A DNA stretch of 64,000 nucleotides, taken from contig NZ_JARKMR010000002.1 in assembly GCF_029350975.1 (NCBI RefSeq), forward strand, positions 372,001-436,000, given 5' to 3'. The notes under the pieces are model-generated. The model saw nothing but the letters and a program-made list of their open reading frames with translations, searched no databases and was not told the origin of the DNA. This DNA comes from Maribacter zhoushanensis (GTDB lineage Bacteria > Bacteroidota > Bacteroidia > Flavobacteriales > Flavobacteriaceae). The position numbers and the translations under genes are program-made. Of the stretch, positions 305 through 5,945 are shown piece by piece; position 1 is the first letter of the stretch, and each line of letters opens with the position of its first letter.

Positions 305-312
305 TACATTTG
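305..312 (+). promoter_or_regulatory. candidate promoter -7 element of the riboswitch/transporter transcript
   Basis: TACATTTG matches TAnnTTTG exactly. No good -33 TTG is visible. Transcription starting about 7 bases downstream would begin just ahead of the structured leader at 327, leaving about 145 nt before the ATG at 465. Confidence 0.45.
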
Positions 313-326
313 CCGCCTTAAAATTG

Positions 327-390
327 TTATCAAGAATCTCAAAAAAGGAGATAGCAACCTGCAATAACAAGCAAGGTGCTAAATAGATAA
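327..390 (+). promoter_or_regulatory. compact SAM-I-like riboswitch aptamer candidate
   Basis: The order of conserved blocks follows the SAM-I (S-box) core. TTATC (327-331) plus AAGA, AGCAACC (353-359), AAGGTGCTAAAT (373-384), then GATAA (386-390) closing a P1 helix with 327-331. Between AAGA and AGCAACC there is only a 5-bp hairpin (ATCTC 336-340 with GAGAT 348-352) instead of the long P2 with kink-turn and pseudoknot loop. ACCTGC (357-362) pairs with GCAAGGT (371-377) as a P3. There is no P4 between the P3 side and P1. The motif match is seen directly. SAM binding is inferred from the family and from the downstream methionine-type transporter. The missing P2 and P4 elements make it either a minimal variant or a diverged relative. 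Confidence 0.55.
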
Positions 391-448
391 GCCAATAATT
401 GGAACAAATGTTAATTCATTATCCATCTAGTGTTGCTATTCCTTTTTT
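341..448 (+). promoter_or_regulatory. expression platform: long-range helix competing with the aptamer
   Basis: Bases 341-358 (A6, GGAG, ATAGCAAC) are complementary to 432-448 (GTTGCTATTCC followed by T6) over 17 pairs with one bulged G. This helix would use the 3' half of P2, the following junction and the start of P3, so it cannot coexist with the aptamer fold. The 3' strand ends in six U residues 17 bases before the start codon, which resembles an intrinsic terminator. A terminator or anti-terminator role is inference. As drawn, the aptamer would block the terminator-like helix, so the direction of control is uncertain. Confidence 0.45.
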
Positions 449-464
449 AATAGAATAAAAAGAA

Positions 465-1763
465 ATGGAAGTTGCTAAAAAGATTATCCCAAAATTTTCT
501 GCTTTAATACCCCTGTTCGTATTTGTATTTACTTTTTTAGGAGTAGGCATCTATCAGAATGATTTCTATGCTCTACCCGCTCCTATTGCAGTTATTATGG
601 GTATTGTAGTTGCATTTATCATCTTTAGGGAATCTATTTCAAATAAAATAGAGACGCTCTTAAAAGGTTGTGGTGATGATAAGATATTGACAATGTGCCT
701 TATTTACTTATTGGCAGGTGCTTTTGCGGCAATTACTAATGAAACAGGTAGTGTAGATGCCATAGTAAATCTTGGTTTAGACCTCATTGCTATACAATAC
801 ATATACGTAGGTATTTTTATTATCGCCGGGTTCTTATCGGTCTCAACGGGAACTTCGGTTGGTGCAATAGTTGCTTTGGCACCTATTGTAGTAGGTTTTG
901 CAGAAGAAAGTAATGCAGAGCTGGCTATACTTTGTGGTGCGTTATTGGGCGGTAGTATGTTTGGTGATAATTTATCCGTAATATCAGATACCACCATAGC
1001 GGCAACACAATCTTTAGGTTGTAAAATGAGCGATAAATTTAAACAGAATATTAAAATAGCCGTACCAGCTGCAGTATTTACCACCGCAATATTAATTTTT
1101 CAAGGATTGGGATTAGAGTCCGCCGTATCTGAAAACACTATCTATAACTATGATATTGTAAAGATTTTACCCTATGTATTAGTAATTGTTCTGTCAATTG
1201 TAGGGATTAATGTATTTGTAAACCTTTTGCTAGGTTCTTTAGCAGCAGTTGCATTAGGTATTGTTTATGGAGACTTCACGCTAATTGAATCTGCTAAAAT
1301 TGCTTATGCGGGATTTACCAATATGACAGAAATATTTCTTTTGTCTTTGTTGACCGGCGGGCTGGCAGCCTTAGTAGCAAGAAATGGCGGTATAGAATTT
1401 ATATTGGTCAATATTAGAAGGCTGATTAAAAATAAGAAATCCGCACAATTTGGTATAGCCACTTTGGTGAGTACAATTAACATGGCAATTGCCAATAATA
1501 CCGTGTCAATTATAATTGCCGGTCCTATTGCAAAAACTATAAATGACGAGTACTATTTAGATAATAAGAAAACTGCTTCGATCTTAGATATTTTTGCTTG
1601 TATTTTTCAAGGTCTATTACCTTATGGCGCACAAGTTTTAATGATTTTAAGTTTCTCTAAAGGGAAAATAGATTATTTAGATTTGGTAAGTAATACTTGG
1701 TATTTATTGCTTTTGTTTATCTATACGTTACTATTTATTGGATTAAGACCATTACGAGGGTAA
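465..1763 (+). CDS. NhaC-superfamily Na+-coupled transporter, probable MetT-type methionine importer
   Basis: The 432-residue protein is almost entirely hydrophobic, with roughly 12 membrane segments. GDNLSVISDTT at residues 167-177 matches the signature loop of the NhaC Na+/H+ antiporter superfamily, and a polar stretch NMAIANNTVS lies in the second half. It sits in the inner membrane. Members of this superfamily placed under S-box or T-box control in Gram-positive bacteria were proposed to be methionine transporters (MetT). The SAM-I-like leader directly upstream makes the same role the best guess here. A plain Na+/H+ antiporter remains possible. The ATG at 465 is preceded by an A-rich stretch typical of flavobacterial starts. 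The gene appears to be transcribed alone. Confidence 0.7.
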   Translation: MEVAKKIIPKFSALIPLFVFVFTFLGVGIYQNDFYALPAPIAVIMGIVVAFIIFRESISNKIETLLKGCGDDKILTMCLIYLLAGAFAAITNETGSVDAIVNLGLDLIAIQYIYVGIFIIAGFLSVSTGTSVGAIVALAPIVVGFAEESNAELAILCGALLGGSMFGDNLSVISDTTIAATQSLGCKMSDKFKQNIKIAVPAAVFTTAILIFQGLGLESAVSENTIYNYDIVKILPYVLVIVLSIVGINVFVNLLLGSLAAVALGIVYGDFTLIESAKIAYAGFTNMTEIFLLSLLTGGLAALVARNGGIEFILVNIRRLIKNKKSAQFGIATLVSTINMAIANNTVSIIIAGPIAKTINDEYYLDNKKTASILDIFACIFQGLLPYGAQVLMILSFSKGKIDYLDLVSNTWYLLLLFIYTLLFIGLRPLRG

Positions 1764-1950: not shown

Positions 1951-2472
1951 ATGGCAGAAGAACCATCGGTTTGCGAAGAGAGCGTTTATAATAACATTTA
2001 TCGAACTCATGCAGAAAGTTTGCGAAACTATCTTTACTACAAGTTTGGTAATATGCAGCGGGCAGAAGATATTGTACATGATTCTTTTGTTAAATTGTGG
2101 TCTATATGCAGTACGGTAGTTTATAAAAAAGTAGCCAGTTTTTTATATAGTATTTCACGAAATCTAATGATCGATACATTACGTAATAAGAAAGTTGCTT
2201 TGAAATTTGAAAAAGGATTGGTGAAAGAACTAGATAATGAAGATCCATATTTTAAATTAAGAACAAAAGAATTTCGATTAAAATTAGAGTCCGTCATTTC
2301 AAGTTTACCTGAAAAACAACGCGAAGCTTTTTTAATGAATAGAATAGATAAGCTAACCTATAAAGAAATTGCGATAAGGCTAGATGTAAGCGAAACAGCC
2401 ATTGAAAAACGTATATCAAAGGCTTTAATAAAATTGAATACGATTACAGAAATTAAAGATTTTTCTATTTAG
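1951..2472 (+). CDS. ECF-type RNA polymerase sigma factor (FecI-like)
   Basis: The 173-residue protein has sigma region 2 at about residues 27-60 (RAEDIVHDSFVKLW) and region 4 at about 118-165 (LPEKQREAFLMNRI, then a helix-turn-helix TYKEIAIRLDVSETAIEKRI). Region 3 is absent, as expected for ECF factors. It is followed after 37 bases by a FecR-type anti-sigma gene and then a TonB receptor, the usual Bacteroidota arrangement for cell-surface signalling. Its likely targets are the receptor and the two peroxidase-like genes downstream. Start codon ATG at 1951. A longer overlapping frame from 1877 is not supported by protein features. Confidence 0.9.
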   Translation: MAEEPSVCEESVYNNIYRTHAESLRNYLYYKFGNMQRAEDIVHDSFVKLWSICSTVVYKKVASFLYSISRNLMIDTLRNKKVALKFEKGLVKELDNEDPYFKLRTKEFRLKLESVISSLPEKQREAFLMNRIDKLTYKEIAIRLDVSETAIEKRISKALIKLNTITEIKDFSI

Positions 2473-2509
2473 CAGGTTGGTTAAATAATTTTTTAAACGT
2501 ATTACTGGT

Positions 2510-3418
2510 ATGAGCAAGCATTTGGAAGATAATAATTTAATTGCCCGTTGGATGGATGGTCGTTTAAGTGAAGAAGAGAAAGACCAGTTGAAAGAATCGG
2601 GTGAATTAGATGCGCTTAAAACCGTAATTGATGATATAGATACTTGGAAGGTAAAACCATTTAATGTAGATGCAGGTTTAACCAAGTTAAAAGAAGAGAA
2701 TAAGACGGTTGTTCCATTAAAAAATAGTAATAAAACCTGGCTGCGTATTGCCGCAAGTGTAGCCATTTTAATTTCATTTAGCTTGGTTTGGTATTTGACT
2801 TCAACTAGCTCCACTACGGTAGCTACAGAAATAGCAGAGAGTAAAACAGTTGAACTACCAACAGGTTCTTTGGTTGAACTAGATGCGGCATCAAGTATAA
2901 CATATAACAAAAATGATTGGAAAGACAGTAGAATGCTCAACCTTTCAGGTCAAGCATTTTTTAATGTCACCAGCGGTGCTCCTTTTGTCGTAAAAACGCC
3001 TACAGCAAAAGTTTCTGTATTGGGTACTCAGTTTAATGTAAGTACACAGAACAATGATTTTTCGGTGTATTGTTATGAAGGCAAAATAGAAGTTACGTAT
3101 AAAAACAATTCAGAAATTATTACGAAAGGGCAAAGTGTATTTTTAGTAAATGGCAAACTTGAAAAAGATGAACACGAATATTTAAGTCCGGAATGGATGA
3201 ATGGTTTAAGTACCTATGATAGAACTCCGCTAAAAACAGTTATAGCAGATGTGAAACGCTATTATAATGTAGAGGTCAATCTTCCGCAAAAGTATGATGC
3301 ACTTCAGTTTACGGGTACAATAGCGCATAAAGATTTACAACAAACTTTAAATACCATTTTTACCACAATGGAAATTAAATACGAGCTTCAAGAAGGTAAT
3401 ACCGTTATTTTTGAATAG
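2510..3418 (+). CDS. FecR-family anti-sigma factor
   Basis: The 302-residue protein has a cytoplasmic N-terminus (1-75) containing the WMDGRLSEEEKDQ type of segment. One membrane helix follows at about 77-97 (WLRIAASVAILISFSLVWYL), then a periplasmic FecR domain (about 105-200, with VLGTQFNVS) and a C-terminal DUF4974-like domain (about 225-300). It should hold the upstream ECF factor at the membrane and release it when the outer-membrane receptor is engaged. The receptor reading frame begins 22 bases after its stop, which supports one operon. Confidence 0.9.
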   Translation: MSKHLEDNNLIARWMDGRLSEEEKDQLKESGELDALKTVIDDIDTWKVKPFNVDAGLTKLKEENKTVVPLKNSNKTWLRIAASVAILISFSLVWYLTSTSSTTVATEIAESKTVELPTGSLVELDAASSITYNKNDWKDSRMLNLSGQAFFNVTSGAPFVVKTPTAKVSVLGTQFNVSTQNNDFSVYCYEGKIEVTYKNNSEIITKGQSVFLVNGKLEKDEHEYLSPEWMNGLSTYDRTPLKTVIADVKRYYNVEVNLPQKYDALQFTGTIAHKDLQQTLNTIFTTMEIKYELQEGNTVIFE

Positions 3419-3440
3419 TATTGAACGTATAAAGCATAAT

Positions 3441-5945
3441 ATGAGACCTATGTATAAGCATAAGAGAACGTTACTTCAGTTTCTTGTTCTTAGTTGGTGT
3501 TGTATTTTTTTTCCTTGCGTATCATTTTCTCAAAACGCTCCTGCATTAAAATTAGTGGATTTTTTAGATGAATTAAAAGCCACTTACAATGTAGATTTTA
3601 TCTATAACCACACACTTTTAGAACAAGTTGAACTTCCCTCCTCTTCACATGATTGTGAATCGTTAGAAAATTGTTTAGCAAATATAAATGAAGAGGCTCC
3701 CATCAAATTTATTAAAGATGGAATCAACTCATATATGGTAGTACCTATAAGAAAAGATATTTTATTTACCGTTGAAGATGCAGCAACCTCTGAATCTCTT
3801 GGTGATATTACGGTTCAAGTAAACAATGGTGAAGAGCGGTTTTTGTATCCTACAAAATCTAATTATACGATTAAGAATTTATTCCCGCTAGATTCTGTCC
3901 ATATCCGTTCCGCGTTTTATAATACATTGCACTTAACAGCGTCAGAACTGTTGGCATTAAAAACACCTGTGCGCTTAGAACACGCTATGATTCATTTGAA
4001 TGAAGTTCAGATAACCGATTATTTGACGAGAGGCGTTAATGCTAAGATCAGCGATAACACTTTTCAAATAGATATGAAGACATTGGGTTTGCTTGCCGGT
4101 GAAACAGATGGCGATGTTTTTAATGTAGTAAAGAATATTCCAGGTGTACATACGCCAAGCGGTAAGCCAGGTAGTTTAAATTTAAGAGGTAGTACCTTTG
4201 ATCAATCCTTAATTGAAATTGACGATATTACTATTTACCATAATGGTCATTTTTATGGAGCCATAGCGCCTTATAACCCTACAACCGTTAGTGAAATAGA
4301 ATTACAACGAAATACGCTAGCTGCAAAATGGGGAGGTCGCGTTGGCGGTCTAATTCATATGACCACTAATAATACAGTGCCAGATTCTACATTATATGAA
4401 GTACAGGCAAATACCGTTTATGCAGGGGCAACTATTCAAATGCCTTTAGTAAAAGATAAATTGGCTTTATATATTGCTGCTAGGTCTAATTACCCTAGTA
4501 TTAATTCCCCAAAATTAACGGCCTTCTCTAATCTTAATTTTCAGGGCAGTCGTTTAGAGGATGTTGCCGATGATGTTAATAGTGAATTTTTTAAAGTAGG
4601 ATTTTATGATATCAATTCAAAACTCGTATATGATATTAATGAAAACCATAAGGTAACCGTTAGTTATATCAGTATTCAAAACCTATTGTCGGCAACTTTA
4701 GAAGATGCTGATGATAAGGATAATAAAGATTTTAGGGATTTGTCTCTAGATAACTGGGGTATGACAGTAAAGTGGGAAGGTACATTCTCAGAGAAGCTTA
4801 AAGCACAGGCAAGGTTTAGCAAATCATCACTATTTATAGATAATAAAAGTGAAGGTTTTTCTGTATCGGAGCGTTCAAGTTTTGAGAAATACTCCAATAC
4901 CATTGACGATACTAGGTTCATCACTGAAGTAGAATTTCAACTAAACGAAAATACCGCTCTAGAAACAGGGTATACAATAACAGAATATAGTTTAAGGTTT
5001 GATGAGCGAAATGATGAGAATAGTATTGACAGCCGTAGAGATCAAGATGCAATGACGCATAGTATGTACGCATCCTTTAATAAGAATTGGGACGACAAGG
5101 TAACGGCTAATTTTGGGATGCACACAGATTATTACGATCCTAATAAAAGATTCTATGTAGATCCTAGAATTTCAATAAATGTTAGAACAAGTGATGCATT
5201 ATACTTAAAAACTTCGGCAGGTCGATCACATCAATTCATTCAAAAAAAATTACGTGATGATTTTGATGATTTCAATAATCAGACGCAATTCTGGTATTTA
5301 CCTGATCAAACCACAGCGGTATTGGAGGGTTACCAAACTATGCTTGGGGCTTTGTACAACAAATCTGGCTGGTTGGTAGATTTGGAAATTTATATTAGAA
5401 ATACCAAAAACGTAACATTACAGACCAATACGGATACGCTAGAAAAAGGAAAGCTAAAAAGTATGGGTGCTGATTTGTTTGTAAAAAAGAGATGGAACAA
5501 TTTTGAAACCATGTTCAGTTATTCGCTAAGTGAGGTAAATACGGACTTTGATGAAACCTTGCCGATATTTTTTGACCAACGCCATATCTTACATGTTACA
5601 GGTTTATGGCATATAGATCCTTTTAATTTGGCGGTAACCTGGGGCTATTTTACCGGTATGCCGGTAATTGTATCGGATTTTGATAGTAGTAGCTCAATTT
5701 CACAAAGCGATTTGGATATTGGCTATACTAATCGTTTTCCTAGTATGCACCAACTAGACGTATCAGCGACATATGAATTCACTAATGCTAGAAAAGGTTG
5801 GAAGGGCATTGTGGGGTTATCATTTGTAAATCTTTATGACCAAGATAATATCGTAAACATATTTCAGAATGAGCCACCGGTAGATGACCCCTATCGTAAA
5901 ACTATAGGCTTCGCCCCTAACCTACAACTTAGCATACAGTTTTAG
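3441..5945 (+). CDS. TonB-dependent receptor with STN signalling domain
   Basis: The chosen ATG at 3441 gives 834 residues. The frame extends upstream to a TTG at 3411 that would overlap the anti-sigma gene, and ATG 3450 is also possible. The order is a signal peptide (YKHKRTLLQFLVLSWCCIFF, cleaved near VSFSQ), an STN/secretin-type domain at about 35-105 that would contact the FecR protein, and a short carboxypeptidase-like beta domain. A plug follows at about 210-310 (ETDGDVFNVVKNIPGVHTP, LNLRGS, AKWGGRVGGLIHM), then a long barrel of aromatic and polar strands ending QLSIQF. It is an outer-membrane importer. The substrate cannot be read from sequence. No SusD partner is present, so a metal chelate or small molecule is more likely than a glycan. 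Confidence 0.9.
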   Translation: MRPMYKHKRTLLQFLVLSWCCIFFPCVSFSQNAPALKLVDFLDELKATYNVDFIYNHTLLEQVELPSSSHDCESLENCLANINEEAPIKFIKDGINSYMVVPIRKDILFTVEDAATSESLGDITVQVNNGEERFLYPTKSNYTIKNLFPLDSVHIRSAFYNTLHLTASELLALKTPVRLEHAMIHLNEVQITDYLTRGVNAKISDNTFQIDMKTLGLLAGETDGDVFNVVKNIPGVHTPSGKPGSLNLRGSTFDQSLIEIDDITIYHNGHFYGAIAPYNPTTVSEIELQRNTLAAKWGGRVGGLIHMTTNNTVPDSTLYEVQANTVYAGATIQMPLVKDKLALYIAARSNYPSINSPKLTAFSNLNFQGSRLEDVADDVNSEFFKVGFYDINSKLVYDINENHKVTVSYISIQNLLSATLEDADDKDNKDFRDLSLDNWGMTVKWEGTFSEKLKAQARFSKSSLFIDNKSEGFSVSERSSFEKYSNTIDDTRFITEVEFQLNENTALETGYTITEYSLRFDERNDENSIDSRRDQDAMTHSMYASFNKNWDDKVTANFGMHTDYYDPNKRFYVDPRISINVRTSDALYLKTSAGRSHQFIQKKLRDDFDDFNNQTQFWYLPDQTTAVLEGYQTMLGALYNKSGWLVDLEIYIRNTKNVTLQTNTDTLEKGKLKSMGADLFVKKRWNNFETMFSYSLSEVNTDFDETLPIFFDQRHILHVTGLWHIDPFNLAVTWGYFTGMPVIVSDFDSSSSISQSDLDIGYTNRFPSMHQLDVSATYEFTNARKGWKGIVGLSFVNLYDQDNIVNIFQNEPPVDDPYRKTIGFAPNLQLSIQF

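Follow-up and report, generated by a model that had tools for sequence, protein, structure and literature searches.

Locus and target gene

The window, that is the whole stretch of 64,000 nucleotides of Maribacter DNA that was analysed, carries close to its 5' end a structured leader followed by a gene encoding a transporter of the NhaC superfamily (Table 1). This type of target had been named in an initial annotation made from the sequence alone, and the match of the protein to PF03553 bears it out. Against the NCBIfam equivalog for the Na+/H+ antiporter NhaC, TIGR00931, the same protein scored 84.7 bits, far below the curated cut-off of 370 bits. The substrate is probably methionine, judging from the SAM aptamer in front of the gene and from the SAM riboswitches that accompany the methionine and SAM genes of this genome. 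The transporter gene is adjoined by a cluster encoding a FecI-type sigma factor, a FecR and a plug-domain receptor (window positions 1951-5945).

Table 1. Position of the features of the leader and of the gene that it precedes, in window coordinates
Feature	Position	Strand	Basis
Promoter -7 box, TACATTTG, TAnnTTTG type	305..312	+	72 of 77 leaders share the box type
SAM-I/IV aptamer	322..418	+	RF01725, whole model 1-99
P1, 327-331 with 386-390	327..390	+	cmscan; 98.5% of cells paired, nearly invariant in 66 distinct aptamers
P2 hairpin, 336-340 with 348-352	336..352	+	Both-side changes in 2 of 5 pairs, 66 aptamers
Competing helix, 5' strand (P2 loop, P2 3' strand, start of P3)	341..358	+	17 pairs with 432-448
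P3, 353-355 with 378-380, 358-360 with 374-376, 361-362 with 371-372	353..380	+	7 of 8 pairs invariant, 66 aptamers
Pseudoknot (PK-2 type), P3 loop 365-369 UAACA with tail 409-413 UGUUA	365..413	+	Covariation
Hairpin after P1 (P5 position), 392-395 with 399-402	392..402	+	RF01725 alignment structure line
Competing helix, 3' strand (436-447 also the sequestering strand)	432..448	+	Duplex shuffles
Predicted start-codon sequestering hairpin, 436-440 with 464-468 and 442-447 with 457-462, AUG 465-467 paired	436..468	+	Constrained folding, aptamer imposed
NhaC-superfamily transporter (PF03553), 432 aa, probable MetT-like methionine transporter	465..1763	+	PF03553, 85.7 bits

Within the genus an orthologous gene (at least 72% identity) is present in 15 of 36 genomes, and in all 15 a match to the SAM-I/IV family RF01725 is found directly in front of it. 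Of the 21 genomes without the gene, 20 have no RF01725 match and the remaining one (G001) has a match elsewhere. In a sample of 299 genomes of the family, 22 hold a relative of the transporter at E <=1e-60. The element lies within about 90 nt upstream of all 18 relatives that are at least 59% identical, and none of the four that are 40-54% identical has an RF01725 match in front, in a scan of the 299 genomes whose stricter filters lose weak matches. Three of these four distant relatives have no core upstream; the fourth (in G123) starts 71 nt from the end of its contig, with its upstream region mostly unseen. Two of the 15 genomes of the genus that hold the gene present it in damaged form behind a preserved aptamer: in G006 (locus L016) the gene is decaying and only its 3' part remains, and in G025 (L010/L104/L141) it is split into two frames.

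Identity of the aptamer

A cmscan search of the 64-kb window with Rfam 15 gave one match above threshold, RF01725 (SAM-I/IV), which covers the leader over model positions 1-99 of 99 with 58.8 bits (E 4e-7), the gathering score of this family being 41.1 bits. In the genome of 4.26 Mb the leader is the sole RF01725 match at E <=0.001 (E 6.4e-9). The search of the genome with RF00162 (SAM-I) returned only C17:58499 and C17:42770, and nothing at the leader at E <=0.001. When RF00162 was compared with the 15 copies found before the transporter gene in the genus, three were listed, at 28.2-28.5 bits, below the threshold of 44.4. As the leader moreover has no P2 kink-turn and nothing between P3 and P1, its membership in SAM-I was rejected. 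The Rfam comparison that the initial annotation had proposed is therefore divided, with the SAM-I/IV model matching over its whole length and the SAM-I model missing the leader.

The same annotation had described a minimal SAM-I-like RNA with a layout different from that of classical SAM-I. Its description of the parts is accurate: the conserved blocks occur in order over 64 nt, from TTATC at 327 to GATAA at 386-390, P2 consists of a simple 5-bp hairpin that has neither an internal loop nor a kink-turn, and P4 is absent, as no helix stands between P3 and P1 in the cmscan structure. The claim of a minimal form and a new layout has to be withdrawn in view of the full-length RF01725 match. According to the paper that defined the class (Weinberg et al. 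2010, PMC2864571), the P2 of these SAM-I/IV variants has no internal loop. The simple P2 of the leader is thus a feature of the class and is not unusual. A pseudoknot loop in P2 had also been denied, which is correct for the P2 loop itself, but a pseudoknot does exist, and it joins the P3 loop with the 3' tail. By its sequence, the leader is an ordinary SAM-I/IV riboswitch aptamer belonging to a family already known, with SAM as its presumed ligand; the earlier view of a SAM-type aptamer is in this respect supported by the RF01725 match.

Leader set, promoter and covariation

The leaders compared were taken from the best 80 of 288 loci of the named-genome scan, to which the window was added. 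The core was found by a regular expression in 77 of these 80 loci and by eye in two more. L175, whose contig begins inside the aptamer, was excluded from the leaders found by regular expression, as were L186 and L221, which have variant cores with the aptamer visible by eye. The 77 loci and the window make 78 leaders, and the removal of L177, which is identical to L162, leaves the set of 77 used below. Three groups were distinguished among them, with 36 (the window's group), 21 (group 2) and 9 leaders (Flavobacterium-type), the remaining 11 of the 77 being in none. In addition, 20 genus labels, one of them standing for an unnamed Flavobacteriaceae, were assigned by hand; thinning to one leader per label controls relatedness only in part.

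Promoter boxes were counted in 77 of the 78 leaders, L205 being left out since its upstream sequence is too short. A TAnnTTTG box is present less than 60 nt before P1 in 72 of them, and there always 6-15 nt ahead, the expectation being 0.07 per 60 nt. In Flavobacterium psychrophilum the sigma-A consensus TAnnTTTG sits at -12 to -5 (PMC9723704). With the box in the same position, transcription is predicted to start near 317, upstream of the aptamer.

Base pairing was evaluated in the 66 distinct aptamers that come from the 78 leaders (the window and loci from the best 80 of 288). Of 1648 cells 99.3% are paired. Those changed on both sides number 27, against 8.9 in shuffles, and none of 500 shuffles reaches 27; pairs with both-side changes number four, against 1.9 in shuffles (10 of 500). 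No excess was seen for further pair types in the aptamer (8 against 8.0 in shuffles). The pseudoknot was spotted by eye and afterwards tested for covariation in the same 66 aptamers, where two of its five pairs have both-side changes. Its first pair is UA in 56 aptamers, CG in seven, UG in two and of another kind in one, and its last pair is AU in 32, GU in 16, GC in 15 and of another kind in three. Compensatory changes, which had been suggested earlier as a check on the helices, are therefore found in P2 and in the pseudoknot; P1 and P3 contribute little in this respect because both hardly vary.

The competing helix

Between 341-358 and 432-448 a helix of 17 pairs with one bulged base (G350) can be formed. 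This competing helix is real. The best duplex between the aptamer half and the tail of the window has -20.3 kcal/mol and is matched by 11 of 10,000 dinucleotide-shuffled tails. Both the helix and the sharing of one strand by the aptamer and the output helix, as proposed in the initial annotation, are supported. Its placing of six T just before the ATG needs correction, as the T run ends at 448, 16 nt ahead of the ATG at 465. The fold of the whole leader is barely more stable than that of shuffled sequences, 31 of 200 of which equal it (z -1.0), and fold stability is thus uninformative here.

The complementarity recurs among the leaders. In 58 of the 77 (from the best 80 of 288 loci), no more than 15 of 300 shuffles equal the strongest duplex of tail and aptamer, the median z being -3.0. 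When tails were reassigned among leaders 5000 times (mean -15.3, sd 0.23), the cognate mean of -17.4 over the 77 leaders was never reached, and the same held in three draws of 5000 with one leader for each of the 20 genus labels. The 36 leaders of the window's group show only a small margin (-16.9 cognate against -16.3 reassigned, 12 of 5000 reaching it), which weakens to 14-153 of 5000 when this group is thinned to 14 labels. For the nine Flavobacterium-type leaders the cognate pairing is no better than the reassigned one (3370 of 5000). Furthermore, among the 77 leaders the tails of 21 others pair as well or better with the aptamer half of the window.

The aptamer strand that is targeted differs between genera. 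In the window's group (Maribacter, Zobellia and others) the tail is directed at P2 and the beginning of P3. In Gillisia, Gelidibacter and some Winogradskyella the pairing reaches J1/2-P2 by means of a GAUUC-type element, and in Flavobacterium it reaches P1/J1-2.

Predicted masking of the start codon

Bacteroidota ribosomes make no Shine-Dalgarno pairing, as stated in two papers (PMC3155529, PMC9976891), and a riboswitch in these bacteria must therefore hide the start site in another way. Masking of the start codon can do without a Shine-Dalgarno sequence, and translation in Bacteroidetes responds to structure placed before the start. A hairpin of -5.2 kcal/mol in this position cut a reporter to 0.12 in Prevotella bryantii, an effect given as one fifth in the discussion of the paper, and left Escherichia coli unaffected (PMC3155529).

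With the aptamer imposed, constrained folding of the leader gives the predicted hairpin at the start codon listed in Table 1. This hairpin and the competing helix are mutually exclusive because both use 436-447. In all 77 leaders, opening the start region costs more energy when the aptamer is formed than when the competing helix is, the median difference being 4.8 kcal/mol. As this bias is partly built in, shuffled tails were used as a control (six per leader, 462 in total). They give a mean difference in opening of 2.4 kcal/mol, whereas the natural tails give 5.0, and 69 of the 77 leaders exceed their own shuffled mean. The figures of the two analyses differ slightly: in the first, a shorter region was opened in those leaders, the window included, where the alternative helix reached into it, and in the second the alternative helix was sought only to 12 nt before the start. 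At least four bases of the start region are paired with the competing strand in 64 of the 77 leaders, against 45% of the shuffles.

The pairing of tail and start was also submitted to reassignment. In 5000 reassignments the cognate mean was never attained, either over all 77 leaders or within the window's group of 36. After thinning, it is reached by 1-211 of 5000 over the 20 labels and by 84-271 of 5000 in the window's group (14 labels). In group 2 (21 leaders) the cognate tail-start pairing is not clearly better, with 540 of 5000 reassignments reaching it. In a simple duplex test of tail and start, just 14 of the 77 leaders are equalled by at most 15 of 300 shuffles, and this test is weak perhaps because the hairpins straddle the chosen boundary. 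Some of the tail-start pairing comes from composition, since the tails are U-rich and the starts A-rich.

In the window taken alone, the tail-start duplex is no better than that of shuffles (167 of 300 as good), its opening energy is 6.3 against 5.1-8.1 in six shuffles, and the starts of 27 other leaders among the 77 pair as well or better with its tail. Masking in the window alone is thus not beyond chance and the case rests on the class of leaders. The clearest relatives, as seen by eye, are those of Flavobacterium (L214) and Gillisia (L202-L206), in which one tail segment complements both the 5' side of the aptamer and the start codon.

Mode and sign of control

From the family match, the covariation of the pseudoknot, the linkage to the gene, the recurring complementarity of tail and aptamer and the change in the opening of the start, all computed here, we infer a riboswitch with SAM as its ligand, which would act on translation rather than on transcription, with an OFF sign, and on a transporter that would have methionine as its substrate. 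Repression of the translation of a MetT-like transporter by a SAM-I/IV riboswitch (SAM-OFF) is, as a whole, a probable reading, and confidence in the aptamer itself is higher. Without SAM, the tail 432-448 would pair with 341-358 and disrupt the aptamer at P2 and P3; the surroundings of the start (about 455-470) would then stay open and the transporter would be made. With SAM, P1, P2, P3 and the pseudoknot would lock and the tail strand would be released, whereupon its segment 436-447 could cover the start codon by pairing with 457-468 and translation would stop.

The sign of control, which had been left open earlier, is most likely OFF, because the tail strand of the competing helix can pair with the region of the start codon as well, and because related leaders offer the same choice between two partners although their sequences differ. 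Moreover, a methionine/SAM regulon could readily include the transporter as its fourth member, given that SAM-I and SAM-II precede the other methionine and SAM genes of the genome. Together with the masking of the start and the precedent of the S-box metT genes, this regulon and the rarity of U runs at the helix end favour the SAM-OFF control of translation.

An opposite, SAM-ON switch of transcription, in which the 17-bp helix and the six U would form an intrinsic terminator without SAM and SAM binding would prevent it, would suit an exporter or a housekeeping antiporter. The 3' strand does end in U6, the alternative fold of the window is more stable than the aptamer fold by 5.3 kcal/mol when modelled with neither ligand nor pseudoknot, and the longest U run of the tail is of at least five in 51 of the 77 leaders (best 80 of 288 loci). 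Nevertheless, just 15 of the 77 leaders have a run of at least five U no further than 8 nt from where the best duplex of tail and aptamer ends, with 13 of 36 in the window's group and 0 of 21 in group 2, and only five of the 77 have at least five U among the 8 nt after the duplex end. A U run at the helix end is therefore not common to the leaders, which makes a terminator unlikely. In the window U443-448 pair with A341-346 and so form part of the stem itself, and the loop measures 73 nt; a terminator scan of positions 100-700 gave no sites, but it detects only loops of 3-8 nt. The SAM-ON sign would also be contrary to that of the S-box metT, which is derepressed on sulfur depletion in Clostridium perfringens (PMC2940859).

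Quite unlikely is a second alternative, in which the aptamer is real as well but control is exerted by mRNA decay or by Rho, coupled to translation, and the competing helix only tunes the ligand threshold. The alternative and aptamer folds are nearly equal in energy, with a median difference of 0.3 kcal/mol over the 77 leaders in the model without ligand and pseudoknot, as would be expected for a tuned switch. Nothing separates this explanation from direct translational control, but the start-masking signal favours translation as the initial step. Very unlikely is a competing helix that arises incidentally where a U-rich tail meets an A- and G-rich P2. Such an origin would agree with the A-rich P2 loops and U-rich tails of many leaders, with the 19 of 77 leaders in which more than 15 of 300 shuffles do as well, and with the tails of group 2, whose pairing with the aptamers of the window's group surpasses that of this group's own tails (-20.3 against -16.3 kcal/mol). 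The dinucleotide shuffles keep the composition; even so, the window is matched by no more than 11 of 10,000, and 58 of the 77 leaders are equalled by at most 15 of 300; in the same way, one leader from each of the 20 genus labels suffices for 0 of 5000 reassignments to reach the cognate mean in all three draws. The SAM-OFF control of translation is consequently preferred.

Other SAM riboswitches and RF01725 loci

In the same genome SAM-I is found before the gene of an O-acetylhomoserine sulfhydrylase, which we take to be metY, and before a metH-like gene encoding the N-terminal part of MetH, and SAM-II is found before metK. Three classes of SAM riboswitch are thus present in one genome, the SAM-I and SAM-II loci being located on contig C17 of G000 (C17:42770-64258; L222, L223 and L224). 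In the genus SAM-I was found in 36 of 36 genomes and SAM-II in 35 of 36. A survey from 2007 reports no species with both SAM-I and SAM-II (PMC2258182).

Of 90 RF01725 loci, 39 precede the transporter, 32 precede another reading frame and 15 have no frame of at least 60 aa within 160 nt; the remaining four were placed wrongly in the computation. Among the loci that do not precede the transporter (L019, L057 and L064, also L225, L227, L228 and L229, and others), some are mobile-element or defence-like, with a BT4734-like N domain, a VapE-like protein or a phage integrase. A resolvase, type I restriction genes and an Hsp70/AAA/kinase cluster are found near such non-transporter loci. A SAM sensor on mobile-element or defence-like genes would be unexpected. 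Relatives of two mobile-element proteins located behind other SAM-I/IV matches were sought in viral contigs, where none was confirmed.

At two loci (L015:1595 and L019:1596) the start codon lies, by eye, within the 3' strand of the aptamer pseudoknot, the loop UAAACA pairing with AUGUUUA. To judge from this arrangement the aptamer alone could hide the start there, no further output helix being needed. In genus g240, from another family of the order (L068, L072-L075 and L085-L090), the SAM-I/IV aptamer is followed by a short frame starting with MFK and, about 200-540 nt past the aptamer, by a gene whose product resembles by eye a TonB-dependent receptor.

Comparison with known systems

SAM-I/IV riboswitches have a pseudoknot between the P3 loop and the tail, in addition to a hairpin after P1, and a crystal structure of this class was reportedly obtained by Trausch et al. 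in 2014. No description of the transporter gene behind SAM-I/IV or of its output helix was found in the parts of the literature searched, where subscription papers are few. The aptamer family (RF01725) and the two-way anti-sequestor logic (PMC2258182) are already known. As far as these searches go, three points are new, namely the target gene, a predicted masking directed at the start codon, and an output helix that has been rewired from one genus to another.

The SAM-I/IV aptamer of the Flavobacteriaceae thereby gains a clear target, the MetT-like transporter, and a testable mechanism. The 77 leaders of one gene are a natural series in which a nearly fixed aptamer has been rewired to new output helices, and they suggest how a Bacteroidota riboswitch hides the start site without Shine-Dalgarno pairing. 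In addition, the genome shows three SAM aptamer classes sharing one pathway. It is tentatively proposed that one nearly invariant SAM-I/IV aptamer was repeatedly coupled, before one orthologous gene in one family devoid of Shine-Dalgarno pairing, to novel output helices aimed at one aptamer strand or another, each of these helices burying the start codon, and that direct masking of the start codon would be the general form of riboswitch control in Bacteroidota.

With respect to the aptamer, the leader corresponds to SAM-I/IV RF01725 (PMC2864571) in the whole model, in the conserved core, in the P2 without internal loop, in the hairpin after P1 and in the pseudoknot of the P3 loop with the tail, and no difference in the aptamer was found. 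A P4 helix is named for SAM-I/IV in PMC6890682, whereas the Rfam structure line and the leader have none between P3 and P1; this is perhaps a matter of naming only. The same paper names a P2 kink-turn and a P4 helix for SAM-I, describes for SAM-IV a pseudoknot between P3 loop and tail and a hairpin after P1, and considers the ligand pocket to be common to SAM-I and SAM-I/IV. S-box SAM riboswitches have also been reported in metagenome fragments of Bacteroidetes/Chlorobi (PMC2211319).

In Firmicutes it is the S-box (SAM-I, RF00162) that precedes metT, a gene of the NhaC superfamily (PMC2940859). The likeness with the present leader consists of the ligand pocket, the superfamily of the transporter and the expected OFF logic. 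The aptamer is however of another class, and premature termination of transcription takes place there, whereas masking of the start codon is predicted here. The closest parallel in the choice of strands is offered by the anti-sequestor/sequestor switches (Barrick and Breaker 2007, PMC2258182), in which one strand likewise has two possible partners, the side of the aptamer and the region of initiation. Two differences separate the leader from this scheme, since the masked site here is the start codon with its A-rich surroundings and not a Shine-Dalgarno sequence, and the aptamer strand is P2 with the start of P3, J1/2-P2 or P1 being reached in other genera.
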